From: a virus
IMG/VR virus record: IMGVR_UViG_3300023170_000043
Location: 1 to 50,425 of that record
Direction: 5' to 3' (one strand)
DNA: 50,425 nucleotides
Both the position numbers and the translations under genes were made by a program. The notes under the pieces are model-generated. The model ran no database searches. It was not told the DNA's origin and was given only the letters and a program-made list of their open reading frames with translations. Shown here piece by piece: positions 39,717 through 45,996 of the stretch; the stretch's first letter is position 1; every line of letters starts with the position of its first letter.

Positions 39717-39750
39717 AACCCTTGTCATAAATATTTGACAGGGGTTTTTT
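39717..39750 (+). terminator. Terminator with late promoter in its loop
   Basis: AACCCTTGTCA pairs with TGACAGGGGTT over 11 bp with one T-G wobble; the loop is TAAATATT; six T follow. It ends the replication operon after thioredoxin. The loop carries CATAAATA (see next feature). Confidence 0.9.
39726..39733 (+). promoter_or_regulatory. Late promoter (CATAAATA) inside the terminator loop
   Basis: CATAAATA lies at the apex of the 39717-39746 hairpin, 26 bases before ATG 39759, the typical spacing for late genes here. Confidence 0.7.
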
Positions 39751-39758
39751 CTTTTCAC

Positions 39759-40841
39759 ATGGCAAAATTAAATGAAGGGGATGTGATGGAGGGCGTATTT
39801 GCCATCTGTCTCGCAGAATTATTTGCTCACAACGATATCAACAAGTCTAGAGTAAACGGGTGGAGAAGACAAATAGACCCAGGTATATTCAGAAATGGTA
39901 GGGCAGAGGTAACAGTAAGAGAATTTAAAGATGGTAGACCAAAGGATAATATCAAGGTCACTCTTATTCTTAGACTAAAATATGAATCAACAAATATGGC
40001 TTTTGGAGATAACTTTGCTCCTTTATATGAAAGTAGTAAAGATATAGGTAATATCAGTAGAAAGATTGATAATTTAATAACTTTTACCAAAACTCATTAC
40101 AGATCTTTGATTAAACAAACTAAAGATAGTTATTTAAGAAATAAACAATCTGATAATGTTGAAATTATTATCAATGCAGATGGTATTGCTGGAGAGTCTT
40201 CTGGTGGATCTATAAAAGGTGATTTGGAAGTTGATGTTAATATGAATGGTGCTATTGTAATGGACAGAAGACTTAGTTTTTCATTGAAGTCTGGTAGTAA
40301 AACTCTTGCCAATTTAAGTCCTTTCAATGGTATGATGGATATCTTGGGGAGATTTGGAGTGTCTTTGGAAAAGGAAGTAGAATATAGAACTATTTTGGGT
40401 GAACAGTTGGCAACTGCAAGAACTCCAGCTGAAAAAAGATTAAAGGTTAATACTATTAATAACCTATACAATGACACTTTATCTGGTTTATCTGATAAAT
40501 CATCCTCTGCATCATTTAAAGGTGCTGCTTTTCAACTTTTTAGAGATGTCACTTTTGGTTCAGATCTAGCAAACGTAGTTGATATTGATAAAACTAAAAT
40601 CAAAGAGATCACTGTAGAACATATAAATGAATTGGAACAGAACACAACATTAATACGTGTTGATGAGTCTGGTAGAGGTTCTAATAAAACGTTAAAGTTT
40701 GTATTACAACCTTTAAATAAGGAATTATTCCAACTAAGATTTAAAAAAAGAACTGCTGGTTCTGGAGAAAACTTTCAAATTAAGGAATTGAAATTCTATG
40801 TAGAAGCGGGTAAAGCCGCATATGCACCGCAACTTAAATGA
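39759..40841 (+). CDS. Unknown late protein
   Basis: 360 aa from ATG 39759 (an earlier in-frame start at 39735 lies in the terminator). Begins AKLNEGDVMEGVFAICLAELFA, contains GIFRNGRAEVTVREF, a beta-rich middle (GDLEVDVNMNGAIVMDRRLSFSL) and ends with strands (FQLRFKKRTAGSG, FQIKELKFYVEAGKAAY). Family not recognised; a nuclease-like or virion function cannot be separated from sequence alone. First gene of the second late cluster. Confidence 0.7.
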   Translation: MAKLNEGDVMEGVFAICLAELFAHNDINKSRVNGWRRQIDPGIFRNGRAEVTVREFKDGRPKDNIKVTLILRLKYESTNMAFGDNFAPLYESSKDIGNISRKIDNLITFTKTHYRSLIKQTKDSYLRNKQSDNVEIIINADGIAGESSGGSIKGDLEVDVNMNGAIVMDRRLSFSLKSGSKTLANLSPFNGMMDILGRFGVSLEKEVEYRTILGEQLATARTPAEKRLKVNTINNLYNDTLSGLSDKSSSASFKGAAFQLFRDVTFGSDLANVVDIDKTKIKEITVEHINELEQNTTLIRVDESGRGSNKTLKFVLQPLNKELFQLRFKKRTAGSGENFQIKELKFYVEAGKAAYAPQLK

Positions 40842-40847
40842 TAAATA
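40840..40847 (+). promoter_or_regulatory. Late promoter element (GATAAATA)
   Basis: GATAAATA 34 bases before ATG 40881, overlapping the preceding stop TGA (40839-40841). Confidence 0.7.
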
Positions 40848-40880: not shown

Positions 40881-42143
40881 ATGAAAAAGTTTACGGATTT
40901 CTTAACTGAAGCTAGAGAAACATCTGCGTCTACCGAAGCGAAAAGACTCGGTTTGACGGGAGATGGTCATGGCGGTTGGTATGACAAAAATGGTGAATTT
41001 GTAGCAAAGACTGTTAATGGAGAATTAAAGTTTTTTGGTAAGAATGATGTTCCTGGAGGAAAAGATTCTCCTTCATTGGAAACTCCAACAGGAAAAGCAC
41101 AAGCAGCTGCTGAGGTTCCACAAGTAAACACTCAAGCTAATAAACAACAAACACAAACAAAACAAGAACTTCCACCAGAAGAACAACCGGCCGAAGAAGA
41201 GGTTCCTGTGGAGAGACCAGTTCCAGAAGCACCTGGAGTTGTTGTAGTATTCGGTAGATTTAATCCACCAACAATTGGTCACCAAAAACTTCTAGATCGT
41301 GCAGCAAAAGAAGCCGATAAGAGAGGTTATGAACTTAGAGTTTATCCTTCACGTTCACAAGACAAGAAGAAAAATCCTCTGACTCCTGATATGAAGATAT
41401 CATATATGCGTCAGATGTTTCCAGACTATGCAGATAATATTATTGATGACAAGGGTTCAAAGACTATCTTCAATGTTATGACTGGGGCTTATGGTGAGGG
41501 TCATGATAATCTAATAATTATGGTTGGTGCAGACAGACTTGGGGAGTTTCAAGGTCTTGCACACAAATATAATGGAGAACTTTATGATTTCAAGGAGTTG
41601 GAAGTAGTCTCTGCCGGAGATAGAGATCCAGATTCTGATGATGTAACTGGAATGTCAGCATCAAAACTGAGACTTGCAGCTGCAGAAGGTGACTTTATTA
41701 AGTTCGCTAAGGGTGTTCCAGATACACTCGGTAACATGGAGAAACTCGAACTCTTCAATGTTCTTCGTAGATCTATGGAAATTAGTGAAGAAACTGAAAT
41801 TTGGGAAGTAGCACCTAAACTCGATGAAGAAGGAATGCGTGATGCATACCTAGTCGATGGTGTTTATAAAGTTGGTGACATTGTTGAAAATGTCAACACT
41901 GGATTTGTTGGAGAGGTAATTAGAAGAGGTACAAATTATGTAATCTCTGTCACAGAAGATAATATAATGTTTAAGTCTTGGTTGAGAGATCTTGTAGAAA
42001 ATCATCCGCATGAAGTAGGTACTGATGAATATAGAGAATATGTTCAGAAATTAACTCCCGGAGAAAAAGTAAGAAGTTTTACAGGAGTTGGAGTTCCTTC
42101 AATTTATGATAGATTTAAACGGGGTATTAAAAAGAATAAATAA
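40881..42143 (+). CDS. Nucleotidyltransferase with capsid-targeting-like N-terminus
   Basis: 420 aa. Residues 1-12, MKKFTDFLTEAR, resemble the T4 internal-protein targeting sequence MKTYQEFIAEA, and LTE-A is a gp21-type site. A Gln/Pro/Glu-rich linker runs to about 118. The HxGH-type nucleotidyltransferase domain is at about 119-300: VVFGRFNPPTIGH (122-134), MVGADRLGEF, and SASKLR (259-264) as the second signature, as in NMN adenylyltransferase and cytidylyltransferases. A KOW-like strand region follows (VGDIVENVNTGFVGEVIRR). The substrate cannot be told from sequence. Confidence 0.85.
   Translation: MKKFTDFLTEARETSASTEAKRLGLTGDGHGGWYDKNGEFVAKTVNGELKFFGKNDVPGGKDSPSLETPTGKAQAAAEVPQVNTQANKQQTQTKQELPPEEQPAEEEVPVERPVPEAPGVVVVFGRFNPPTIGHQKLLDRAAKEADKRGYELRVYPSRSQDKKKNPLTPDMKISYMRQMFPDYADNIIDDKGSKTIFNVMTGAYGEGHDNLIIMVGADRLGEFQGLAHKYNGELYDFKELEVVSAGDRDPDSDDVTGMSASKLRLAAAEGDFIKFAKGVPDTLGNMEKLELFNVLRRSMEISEETEIWEVAPKLDEEGMRDAYLVDGVYKVGDIVENVNTGFVGEVIRRGTNYVISVTEDNIMFKSWLRDLVENHPHEVGTDEYREYVQKLTPGEKVRSFTGVGVPSIYDRFKRGIKKNK
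42135..42142 (+). promoter_or_regulatory. Late promoter element (AATAAATA)
   Basis: AATAAATA 26 bases before ATG 42168, overlapping the stop codon of the nucleotidyltransferase gene (42141-42143). Confidence 0.7.
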
Positions 42144-42167: not shown

Positions 42168-44948
42168 ATGGCTAGTTGGGAAGAATTTTCGTACCGTATT
42201 TTAGAATCTAAAAAATTAGACCCTGTTGGTAAGGAAGACGGGGACGTGAACAATGATGGAAAAAAAGACGAATCCGACAACTATTTGATGAAGAAGAGAG
42301 CTGCTGTGGGTGCAGCTATAGAATCAGATAAAAAGAAAAAATCAATGCGTCCTGGAAGTCCTATTGCTCAGGCATTAAAGGCTGATAAAATCCTTATGGA
42401 TCTTCATAAAGAAGGTTTGGATCCAGTAGGTAAAGAAGACGAAGATATTGATAACGACGGAGATTCGGATAAAACCGATTCATATCTTCTAAATCGCAGA
42501 AAAGTAAGATCTAAGATTATTGCTCCTAAAGAGAGACTTAAGACTGATAGAGATATGTTTAATATCCCTAAGTCTGAACAGGAGTCTGCGAAAGAAAGAC
42601 TCCTTGCCAAAGCAAAGGCAAAGAGAATGAAGGAAGAAGTTGAAGTTATTGATGAAGACTCACGTCGTATGAGCAATAAGCAACGTACTCAACGTGTAAG
42701 AGACAACATTAAGACATTTAAGAATAGTAAAATAGAATACACTCCTCCTAATAACTGGGATCCCGATGCTAATCGTGGTCAAGGAGAAGTTCTTACTCGT
42801 AAGCAGATTGAGAAGAAGCGTCGTAAGTCACTTCGCCAAGAAGAAGTTGAAGTTGTTGATGAGTCTGGATATTTTCCAACTCCAGAATCACAAAGAAAAG
42901 ATTATGAAAAACATAAACCCAACTTGAGTACAGGTGAACTTCCTGGTAGACACAAACCCGTGAAGCGTAAACCTGATGGTTCTTTACAGAAAAACTCTTT
43001 TGAACCAGAAGGTGAACAACTTGATGAAAGATCCGTTCGTATGTCTCGCATGGTAGACAGATATCTTGGTAGAGACAAGAGAAAGGCTAAAGAACGTAAG
43101 GATAACGTTCAATCAATTAGAAAAGGTAGAGAAGAAATCGCTAGCAGTATCGCTAGACTTGCACATTCTGGAGATCTTCCCGCAAGTGTAGTAAGACAAG
43201 CTGAAAAAGTGGGTGTTAGACCAGATCACTTCAGGGGTGCTGCTAAGACTGCACTTAAGAAAGAAGAAGTTGAACTACTTGATGAAATGCCTTATCAAGT
43301 AATGGGTTATGATAAGGAAGGTAAGAAGGAGAAGAAGGTCGGCAAACCAGTAAAGAGTAAAAAGTATGCTGACGCAAGAGCGGCAGAACTAGAAGATACT
43401 CACAAGAAAACTGGTGGTAAGTACCGTTCTCAGTATGTTGAAGAGGTTGAAAACATTGAAGAAAAGTCTCTAAGTAGAGCACAACAGAGATTCATGGGTA
43501 TGGTTTATGCTGCTAAGAAGGGAGAGACTCCTGCATCTCCTGAGGTTGCAAAGGCTGCATCTGGTATGTCTAAGAAGGACGCGAAGGATTTTGCAAAGAC
43601 TAAACATGAAGGTCTTCCAGAGAAGAAAGAAACCAAAGAAGAAGTTTCATTGGTAGATAAGATTCTTGCCGAAGCTTCTGACGCAAGACTGATGGCGCAA
43701 AAAGCTAGAAGGGAAGGAAAGAATAAGATTCAAGCTTCTAGGATGAGGACAGCAAAAGTATCTGTTGCTGCTAATCAGATGATGAGAGATGAGGATGATA
43801 GGAAAGAAAAGGCAAAAGAGGATATAAAGAGAGGTAAGTCTGCAAAAACTGGTGCAGAAAGAGCAGAAGCTATTAGAGGTGCTACAAGAGTTAAGGCTGC
43901 TAAAATTATTCAACAAACTGAAAGAGAAAAGAGAGAAGAAAAGGTAAGAGCCCGTAAAGAAAGAAAAATTGAAAAACAAGACGCACAAAAACAAAAGGAA
44001 AAAGCACAGGCACAAAAAAGAGCTCAAAAGGAACAAGAAAGTGTAGAGAAATCAAAAGCAAAAGAGATTGAGAGACAGAAAAAGGAAAAACAACAAAGAA
44101 GAAAGGAGTTGGTTGGTGACATCAAACAAGCTTGGTCATCTAAAACAAATGTAGGTAGTGGTAGAAAGGATACTGAAGATGTTAGCGCTGCCGTGAGTAA
44201 CGTCGGTAACATTGCAAGAGGAATTGGTGGAACTGCAAAAGCAGGTATCAAATATGCTTGGAAAAAGAGACAAGCAAGAAAGGAAGCAGATGAAAGAAAT
44301 AAAGAGGTAAAGGATACTAAAAAGGAGAATTATGAGTTCTCTAATTGGAGAGAAGAGTTTCTTTATGAGATCGATCAGCCACAAGCAAAAGAAAAAATTA
44401 TTGATGTAACTAAAAAGAAAAATAAGGTTGAAGTCAATCCAAACATGGGTGAAGAAAAAGTTAATGAAGCAGCACCATTAGCTGCTGCAATTCCTTTGAT
44501 TGCAAGAGCTGTTGGAGGCGCTGCAGCAAGAGGAATTGCTGCAAGAGGTGCTGGTATGGCTGCAAAGGGTGCATTAAGAAAGAAAGCAGTTGACTTTGCC
44601 GCAAAGAAAGGTGGTGAGATGACTACTGATATGGTTCAGAAGAAACTATCTAAGAAGTTTAGAAACGAGAAGGATGGTGATGAACAGGAATATTATGATG
44701 AGGGTGCTGCTTGGACAAAGAAATCGGGAAAGTCTGAGAGCGGTGGCCTAAACGAGAAAGGTCGCCGCTCATACGAAAGAGAAAACCCTGGTTCTGATCT
44801 CAAAGCACCTTCTAAAAAAGTTGGTAACCCTCGTCGTGCATCATTCTGTGCCAGAATGTCTGGTATGAAAGCTAAACTAACTAGTAAGAAGACCGCAAAC
44901 GATCCTGACTCACGCATTAATAAATCACTTAGAGCTTGGAATTGTTAA
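42168..44948 (+). CDS. 926-aa charged late protein with EF-hand-like loops; probable internal head protein precursor
   Basis: Very rich in Lys, Glu and Arg. N-terminus WEEFSYRILE resembles a targeting peptide with an (I/L)xE site. Two EF-hand/dockerin-like loops, DVNNDGKKDESD (26-37) and DIDNDGDSDKTD (93-104), each after DPVGKED. Repeated EEVE spacers end at (L/I)xE: E163, E373, E432, and also E287 and E502. A coiled, basic segment covers about 500-710; Ala-rich hydrophobic stretch about 765-800. The C-terminal 70 residues (GGLNEKGRRSYERENPGSDL, RRASFCARMSGMK, SLRAWNC) match DUF6321 as I remember it. A packaged, processed protein is inferred, not shown. Confidence 0.7.
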   Translation: MASWEEFSYRILESKKLDPVGKEDGDVNNDGKKDESDNYLMKKRAAVGAAIESDKKKKSMRPGSPIAQALKADKILMDLHKEGLDPVGKEDEDIDNDGDSDKTDSYLLNRRKVRSKIIAPKERLKTDRDMFNIPKSEQESAKERLLAKAKAKRMKEEVEVIDEDSRRMSNKQRTQRVRDNIKTFKNSKIEYTPPNNWDPDANRGQGEVLTRKQIEKKRRKSLRQEEVEVVDESGYFPTPESQRKDYEKHKPNLSTGELPGRHKPVKRKPDGSLQKNSFEPEGEQLDERSVRMSRMVDRYLGRDKRKAKERKDNVQSIRKGREEIASSIARLAHSGDLPASVVRQAEKVGVRPDHFRGAAKTALKKEEVELLDEMPYQVMGYDKEGKKEKKVGKPVKSKKYADARAAELEDTHKKTGGKYRSQYVEEVENIEEKSLSRAQQRFMGMVYAAKKGETPASPEVAKAASGMSKKDAKDFAKTKHEGLPEKKETKEEVSLVDKILAEASDARLMAQKARREGKNKIQASRMRTAKVSVAANQMMRDEDDRKEKAKEDIKRGKSAKTGAERAEAIRGATRVKAAKIIQQTEREKREEKVRARKERKIEKQDAQKQKEKAQAQKRAQKEQESVEKSKAKEIERQKKEKQQRRKELVGDIKQAWSSKTNVGSGRKDTEDVSAAVSNVGNIARGIGGTAKAGIKYAWKKRQARKEADERNKEVKDTKKENYEFSNWREEFLYEIDQPQAKEKIIDVTKKKNKVEVNPNMGEEKVNEAAPLAAAIPLIARAVGGAAARGIAARGAGMAAKGALRKKAVDFAAKKGGEMTTDMVQKKLSKKFRNEKDGDEQEYYDEGAAWTKKSGKSESGGLNEKGRRSYERENPGSDLKAPSKKVGNPRRASFCARMSGMKAKLTSKKTANDPDSRINKSLRAWNC

Positions 44949-45989: not shown

Positions 45990-45996
45990 ATAAATA
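45989..45996 (+). promoter_or_regulatory. Late promoter (TATAAATA)
   Basis: Exact T4 late consensus, 34 bases before ATG 46030, joined to the end of the terminator T run. Confidence 0.85.

Follow-up and report, generated by a model that had tools for sequence, protein, structure and literature searches.

A cassette-built cyanophage protein as a candidate prohead-protease-cut precursor of packaged peptides

In phage T4, the prohead protease gp21 cuts gp22 and gp67 into several fragments at L/I-x-E motifs (PMC9026906). The T4 proteins IPI-IPIII and Alt carry a short N-terminal leader that ends in L/I-x-E and is cut by gp21; they are mostly basic, are not conserved between phages, and are injected (PMC9026906, PMC7411985). 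The ejection proteins gp53 and gp54 of SPN3US/phiKZ-like phages have long propeptides and several prohead-protease sites (PMC10052503). In addition, the polyvalent proteins of phages and plasmids, including P1 DdrB and DarA, are multidomain, virion-packaged, and sometimes proteolysed, and an analogy to polyproteins has been drawn (PMC5512222). Here, we analyze a gene of a marine cyanophage in IMG/VR virus record IMGVR_UViG_3300023170_000043, of which the whole stretch of 50,425 nucleotides is referred to as the window. The gene is read as encoding a gp21-cut, virion-packaged cassette polyprotein precursor, to which we assign a probability of about two in three.

Organization of the cassette ORF

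The ORF (42168-44948, plus strand) starts with ATG and encodes a product of 926 aa that is rich in K and E. Its segments and the adjacent upstream features are as follows.

40881..42143, plus strand: adjacent NMNAT/cytidylyltransferase gene, whose product starts MKKFTDFLTE/AR (T4 CTS-like); orthologue virion-labelled in S-SCSM1
42136..42142, plus strand: ATAAATA, late-promoter-like, 32 nt upstream of the cassette ORF
42168..42206, plus strand: leader MASWEEFSYRILE, residues 1-13, capsid-targeting-like, ends in IxE (E13)
42207..42656, plus strand: cassette A, residues 14-163, with two EF-hand-like DxNxDGxxD repeats and a KERLKTDRD segment; ends KEEVEVIDE (E163); 133 relatives, weak Dockerin_1
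42657..42863, plus strand: cassette B, residues 164-232 (DSRRMSNKQ...), ends QEEVEVVDE (E232); recurs in other proteins
42864..43028, plus strand: cassette C, residues 233-287, ends FEPEGEQLDE (E287)
43029..43286, plus strand: cassette C2, residues 288-373 (RSVRMSRM...), ends KEEVELLDE (E373)
43287..43463, plus strand: cassette D, residues 374-432 (MPYQV...), ends VEEVENIEE (E432); predicted beta-beta-alpha-beta fold
43464..43673, plus strand: DUF3008 cassette (Pfam PF11450), residues 433-502, with sites LPE485 and LAE502
43674..44369, plus strand: K/R/E-rich coil, residues 503-734, ends in CTS-like FSNWREEFLYE (E734)
44370..44468, plus strand: IDVTKKKNKVEVNPNMGE segment, residues 735-767, ends VNE (E767)
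44469..44702, plus strand: Ala/Gly-rich hydrophobic, then basic segment, residues 768-845
44703..44945, plus strand: DUF6321 cassette (Pfam PF19846), residues 846-926, LNE site at E863

Motifs of the (L/I)xE type end at E13, E163, E287, E373, E432, E485, E502, E734, and E863. The preliminary description correctly placed five of these sites and an RILE at residues 10-13, and overlooked E485, E734, and E863. Its EEVE spacers before most blocks correspond to four EEVE-type linkers (EEVExhDE; residues 155-163, 224-232, 365-373, and 424-432), among which it passed over the one at 224-232, EEVEVVDE, where the site is a VxE (E232). The linker before E287 (residues 279-287) is of another type, EPEGEQLDE. 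The block architecture, previously confined to the first half, spans the whole protein (E734, E863, DUF6321). When V is allowed at the first position, the [LIV]xE junction sites are E13, E163, E232 (V), E287, E373, E432, and E502.

The number of (L/I)xE motifs does not exceed chance, either in the whole 926-aa product (9 versus 8.0 ± 2.6; p 0.40) or in residues 1-510 (7 versus 5.1; p 0.25), when compared to shuffles preserving the composition of the Glu-rich product. Motif counting was therefore dropped as evidence for a polyprotein. Far above chance is the placement of the motif where cassettes meet, which becomes visible via relatives alone.

The leader MASWEEFSYRILE is CTS-like and is conserved in colinear relatives, which read MASWEEFSRIVAE/A. 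Across 204 cassette ORFs, hxE falls within residues 6-20 in 55 (28 expected) and is not universal. Pfam assigns DUF3008 to residues 436-487 (24.4 bits; gathering threshold, 24) and DUF6321 to residues 854-924 (78.2 bits; gathering threshold, 28.5), together with sub-threshold dockerin-like repeats (weak Dockerin_1 matches). These are the sole Pfam matches in the product, among which there is no enzymatic or peptidase domain, and an enzymatic polyvalent protein was rejected on the lack of a Pfam catalytic domain.

AF2 models were made from alignments that excluded rows from annotated records. Cassette D is predicted to adopt a compact beta-beta-alpha-beta fold (mean pLDDT, 82.6), and DUF3008 is modelled as helical with lower confidence (pLDDT, 68.4), which would be consistent with small domains on exposed linkers. 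A PDB fold search with both models returned nothing significant, with best E values of 0.5 (PaaB) and 3.2, respectively. The likeness of cassette D to the phage antitoxin Dmd (E value, 1.0; TM, 0.5) was too weak to serve as evidence.

The T4-type late-promoter-like sequence ATAAATA is located at window positions 39727-39733, 40841-40847, 42136-42142, and 45990-45996, 8-40 nt upstream of four plus-strand ORFs that include NMNAT and the cassette ORF. However, across the window as a whole it is no more frequent than expected by chance, and late promoters were not retained as support.

Cassette exchange and the motif at junctions

Relatives in IMG/VR carry single blocks of the ORF product arranged in other orders. 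PHROG and phage-genome matches to the product are likewise piecewise, and no phage record in the phage-genome search matches 80% of the 926-aa query. Blocks B (about residues 155-232) and D (about residues 363-433) are found at 70-87% identity in otherwise unrelated proteins, and the similarity ends at the linkers; for residues 433-502 (DUF3008), the best relatives are 86-89% identical. Three colinear relatives (L128, L132, and L134) retain the leader, cassettes A and D, a DUF3008 cassette, the coil, and DUF6321, and swap the remaining cassettes between the same sites. Linkers are exchanged as well: cassette D is preceded by KEEVELLDE in the window protein versus FEPEGEQLQE in L125, in which cassette C2 has EEVEQIDE before it and this swapped linker after it. 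Loss of the repeated sites in close homologues, which would have spoken against a precursor, is not observed, as the sites persist. We propose that cassettes are gained, lost, and swapped among phages as units bounded by linker sites.

Junctions of six recurrent cassettes were analyzed using every fused copy in a set of about 300 loci, keeping one copy per distinct upstream context (<35% identity). For five of these cassettes, [LIV]xE precedes the cassette in 102 of 115 non-homologous contexts, compared to about 4 expected from shuffled upstream residues. The motif is positioned exactly before cassette D in 39/39 distinct contexts, before B in 6/7, before R (RTRYAK) in 22/24, and before K (KFATQ) in 12/19; at the DUF3008 junction it sits one residue earlier in 23/26. 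The N-border of DUF6321 is the exception, with a P1 Glu in 15/31 contexts. Because hxE precedes it in only 6/31, E863 is the likelier site.

Inside the cassettes, the motif is depleted in D (0 versus 10.4 expected), R (0 versus 9.5), and DUF3008 (4 versus 13.2), with a smaller and weaker depletion in B and K. DUF6321, unlike the depleted cassettes, retains one internal LNE. Many ORFs have DUF3008 at their N-terminus, mostly starting MPAVSKAQQ, without hxE, indicating that hxE is not part of the domain itself. An all-against-all comparison places homology breakpoints near [LIV]xE at a frequency of 0.367, compared to 0.265 at random (about 11 sd). Decoy motifs are mostly flat in this test, and [KR]xE, which is also present in linkers, is raised less.

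Since cassettes are clearly shuffled at linker positions, the linkers might be DNA-level recombination joints, providing short homologies for swapping and having no role in the protein. However, linker codons are nearly as variable as those elsewhere in the proteins (synonymous codon identity, 0.571 versus 0.535 expected), identical linker peptides are encoded by different DNA, and unrelated linkers also end in hxE. The codon variability argues for selection on the peptide and rules out conservation at the nucleotide level, leaving recombination joints scarcely credible as an explanation.

An uncut virion protein deserves more weight, although we consider it unlikely. Here, small domains would be strung on conserved acidic linkers, the whole protein would serve in the core or in DNA condensation, and hxE would have a structural role in the linker or mediate docking, for instance to the scaffold. 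The conservation of the linker core EEVE beyond P3-P1 fits this arrangement, as do the junctions that lack hxE, such as VTNE and VQME in the Syn9 and S-P4 relatives. These junctions and the DUF6321 N-border also exclude a polyprotein in the strict sense, in which each border would have hxE. In addition, internal junctions have M, K, R, or D in the P1' position instead of the Ala usual at CTS and MCP sites, and their P2 is often acidic. An uncut protein, however, does not readily account for the non-homologous linkers ENQQLDE, HPDVISE, FGQFLAE, EPEGEQLDE, AAMVNE, and EETFLTE, which have hxE alone in common, or for the depletion of the motif within most cassettes. Two further observations at odds with it, namely that the same cassettes exist as free proteins and that the DUF6321-site Glu gives way to Ala where the protease is absent, are detailed below.

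Free cassettes, the S77 protease, and virion labels

DUF6321 is a free protein of 83-94 aa in six podo- and pelagiphages. Peptidase_S77 is present in 13/14 large records with fused cassettes versus 0/6 of these stand-alone-DUF6321 phages. The P1 residue of the DUF6321 GGLNx motif is Glu in 51/52 scorable fused copies and Ala in 52/59 stand-alone copies, a contrast with respect to the protease that may reflect few evolutionary events and whose strength is limited by fragments and few lineages. Two stand-alone copies have Glu, one of which belongs to S-WAM1, a protease carrier. Among 15 further records, mainly with stand-alone DUF6321, the protease occurs solely in the one with a fused GGLNE. 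The exception is L382, which has LNE (Glu) and no S77 on a fragment of 29 kb. The window is a 50-kb fragment that lacks head genes and shows no gp21 of its own.

Genes for the free form of DUF6321 in cyanopodo- and pelagiphages (L299:1459-1713, L300:980-1264, and L301:953-1204) lie beside or near capsid or capsid-assembly genes. This suggests a head role for DUF6321 even without a T4-type protease. Among the open-access papers searched, none names DUF3008 or DUF6321.

The sequence evidence for the sites would equally suit a precursor that is packaged whole and has its linkers cut after injection by a host protease or another phage protease. However, such sites are characteristic of the T4-type prohead protease, whose presence coincides with that of the fused form, and no other candidate protease is indicated, making cutting after injection very improbable. 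Also in favour of processing by gp21 are the major capsid proteins of cyanophages, which show FLAE/APTN and LLTE/APTQ at the position of the T4 gp21 site; the local gp21 thus probably follows the T4 L/I-x-E rule.

The virion proteome of S-SCSM1 was measured by mass spectrometry and comprises 45 proteins (PMC9602691), from which we infer that its virion label denotes mass-spectrometry detection. The S-SCSM1 gene order NMNAT, gp280, gp279 parallels NMNAT and the cassette ORF in the window. The NMNAT proteins are 46% identical, gp280, the positional counterpart of the cassette ORF, has cassette A segments in common with it, and the adjacent gp279, 69 aa long, is DUF3008 in its free form. A homology scan of S-SCSM1 identified four cassette ORFs (gp029, gp089, gp280, and gp279), all four labelled virion protein; a fifth match, the small terminase, was set aside as single-subject. 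NMNAT-like proteins with CTS-like starts (MKSFLQFLKE/A and MKNFSSFLTE/A) are likewise virion proteins. In S-CREM2, the cassette proteins gp137, gp155, and gp160 are listed in a published mass-spectrometry table (PMC10665884). The virion labels are also compatible with the uncut protein described above, as processing of these relatives is unreported.

Several side observations concern these proteins. S-CREM2 gp160 carries GATGFTGAAAPEGPVAGYDP, a near copy of the MCP segment directly following the presumed gp21 site (L060:28343-29236 and L060:18482-19852). Five DUF3008 ORFs (L059:42627-42836, L155:2995-3198, L203:2995-3210, L246:2324-2653, and L157:1982-2308) terminate in sequences similar to the N-terminal CTS of T4, for example KKTYKEFIEYIR and KKRTFKEFLEYIE. 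C-terminal tails of this kind are found on 10 cassette ORFs versus 29/4428 others, and are a possible C-terminal targeting signal judging by this resemblance. Upstream of NMNAT, a 368-aa ORF (window 39735-40841) has no PHROG match, and the S-SCSM2R protein at this position does not match it; S-SCSM1 gp282, in the same position, is virion-labelled.

Proposed route and comparison with known systems

The mosaicism, the peptide-level conservation of the junction motif, its depletion within most cassettes, the co-occurrence with S77, and the virion labels of relatives are observed here, and their most economical reading is entry via the leader, cutting by gp21, and retention of the peptides. The capsid-targeting-like N-terminal leader would bring the precursor into the prohead core, where gp21 (Peptidase_S77) would cut after the Glu of [LIV]xE in acidic linkers of the EEVExxDE or EPEGExxDE type during head maturation. 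This would release several small, mostly basic peptides of about 55-85 aa and two longer pieces, which would remain associated with the DNA and probably pass into the host along with it. By analogy with the T4 internal proteins, the peptides may target the host during infection, in host takeover or counter-defence. That the protein is cut, that its peptides are retained and injected, and what they do are all inferred. The head precursor with spacer-borne gp21 sites between unlike blocks, as originally suggested, agrees with most sequence tests (junctions, internal depletion, protease co-occurrence, and virion-labelled relatives) and draws no evidence from the number of motifs.

A broader idea, which we hold tentatively and at slightly less than even odds, is that of a combinatorial peptide library. 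Cassettes would be carried in head-targeted cyanophage polyproteins, with the prohead protease setting their borders and releasing them, and swapping would yield new mixtures of injected effectors, amounting to a polyprotein system of double-stranded DNA phages in which a protease marks out the units. If the precursor reading is true, a single gene equips the phage head with many distinct peptides, whose borders are readable from sequence. It would also give tentative boundaries and a location, in the head and probably injected, to uncharacterized phage domains, among them DUF3008, DUF6321, and unlabelled PHROG families of abundant ocean viruses, and the question of what T4-like cyanophages inject could be put to a direct test by mapping peptides in available virion samples.

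No account of cyanophage cassette polyproteins of this type turned up in literature searches. The preliminary description took a multi-peptide head precursor to be undescribed in cyanophages, but cutting at multiple sites by gp21 is already known for T4 gp22 and gp67 (PMC9026906). Similar to these two proteins, the cassette protein has multiple L/I-x-E motifs as putative sites for gp21. It differs in that gp22 and gp67 belong to the scaffold or core, most of their fragments exit the head, and they have no shuffled cassettes existing as free genes. It resembles IPI-IPIII and Alt in its CTS-like leader ending in IxE and in the mostly basic pieces that it would release; however, where these follow a scheme of one gene and one product, the cassette protein combines many cassettes and internal sites in one precursor. 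In the SPN3US/phiKZ-like proteins, 13/14 sites serve to remove N-terminal propeptides and one mature protein results, in contrast to the several pieces expected from the cassette protein. Polyvalent proteins carry enzymatic and peptidase domains, whereas Pfam finds none in the cassette protein, whose sites suit an external prohead protease. Compared to these systems, the new element is not multi-piece cutting by gp21 but the presence of interchangeable cassettes at putative protease sites.
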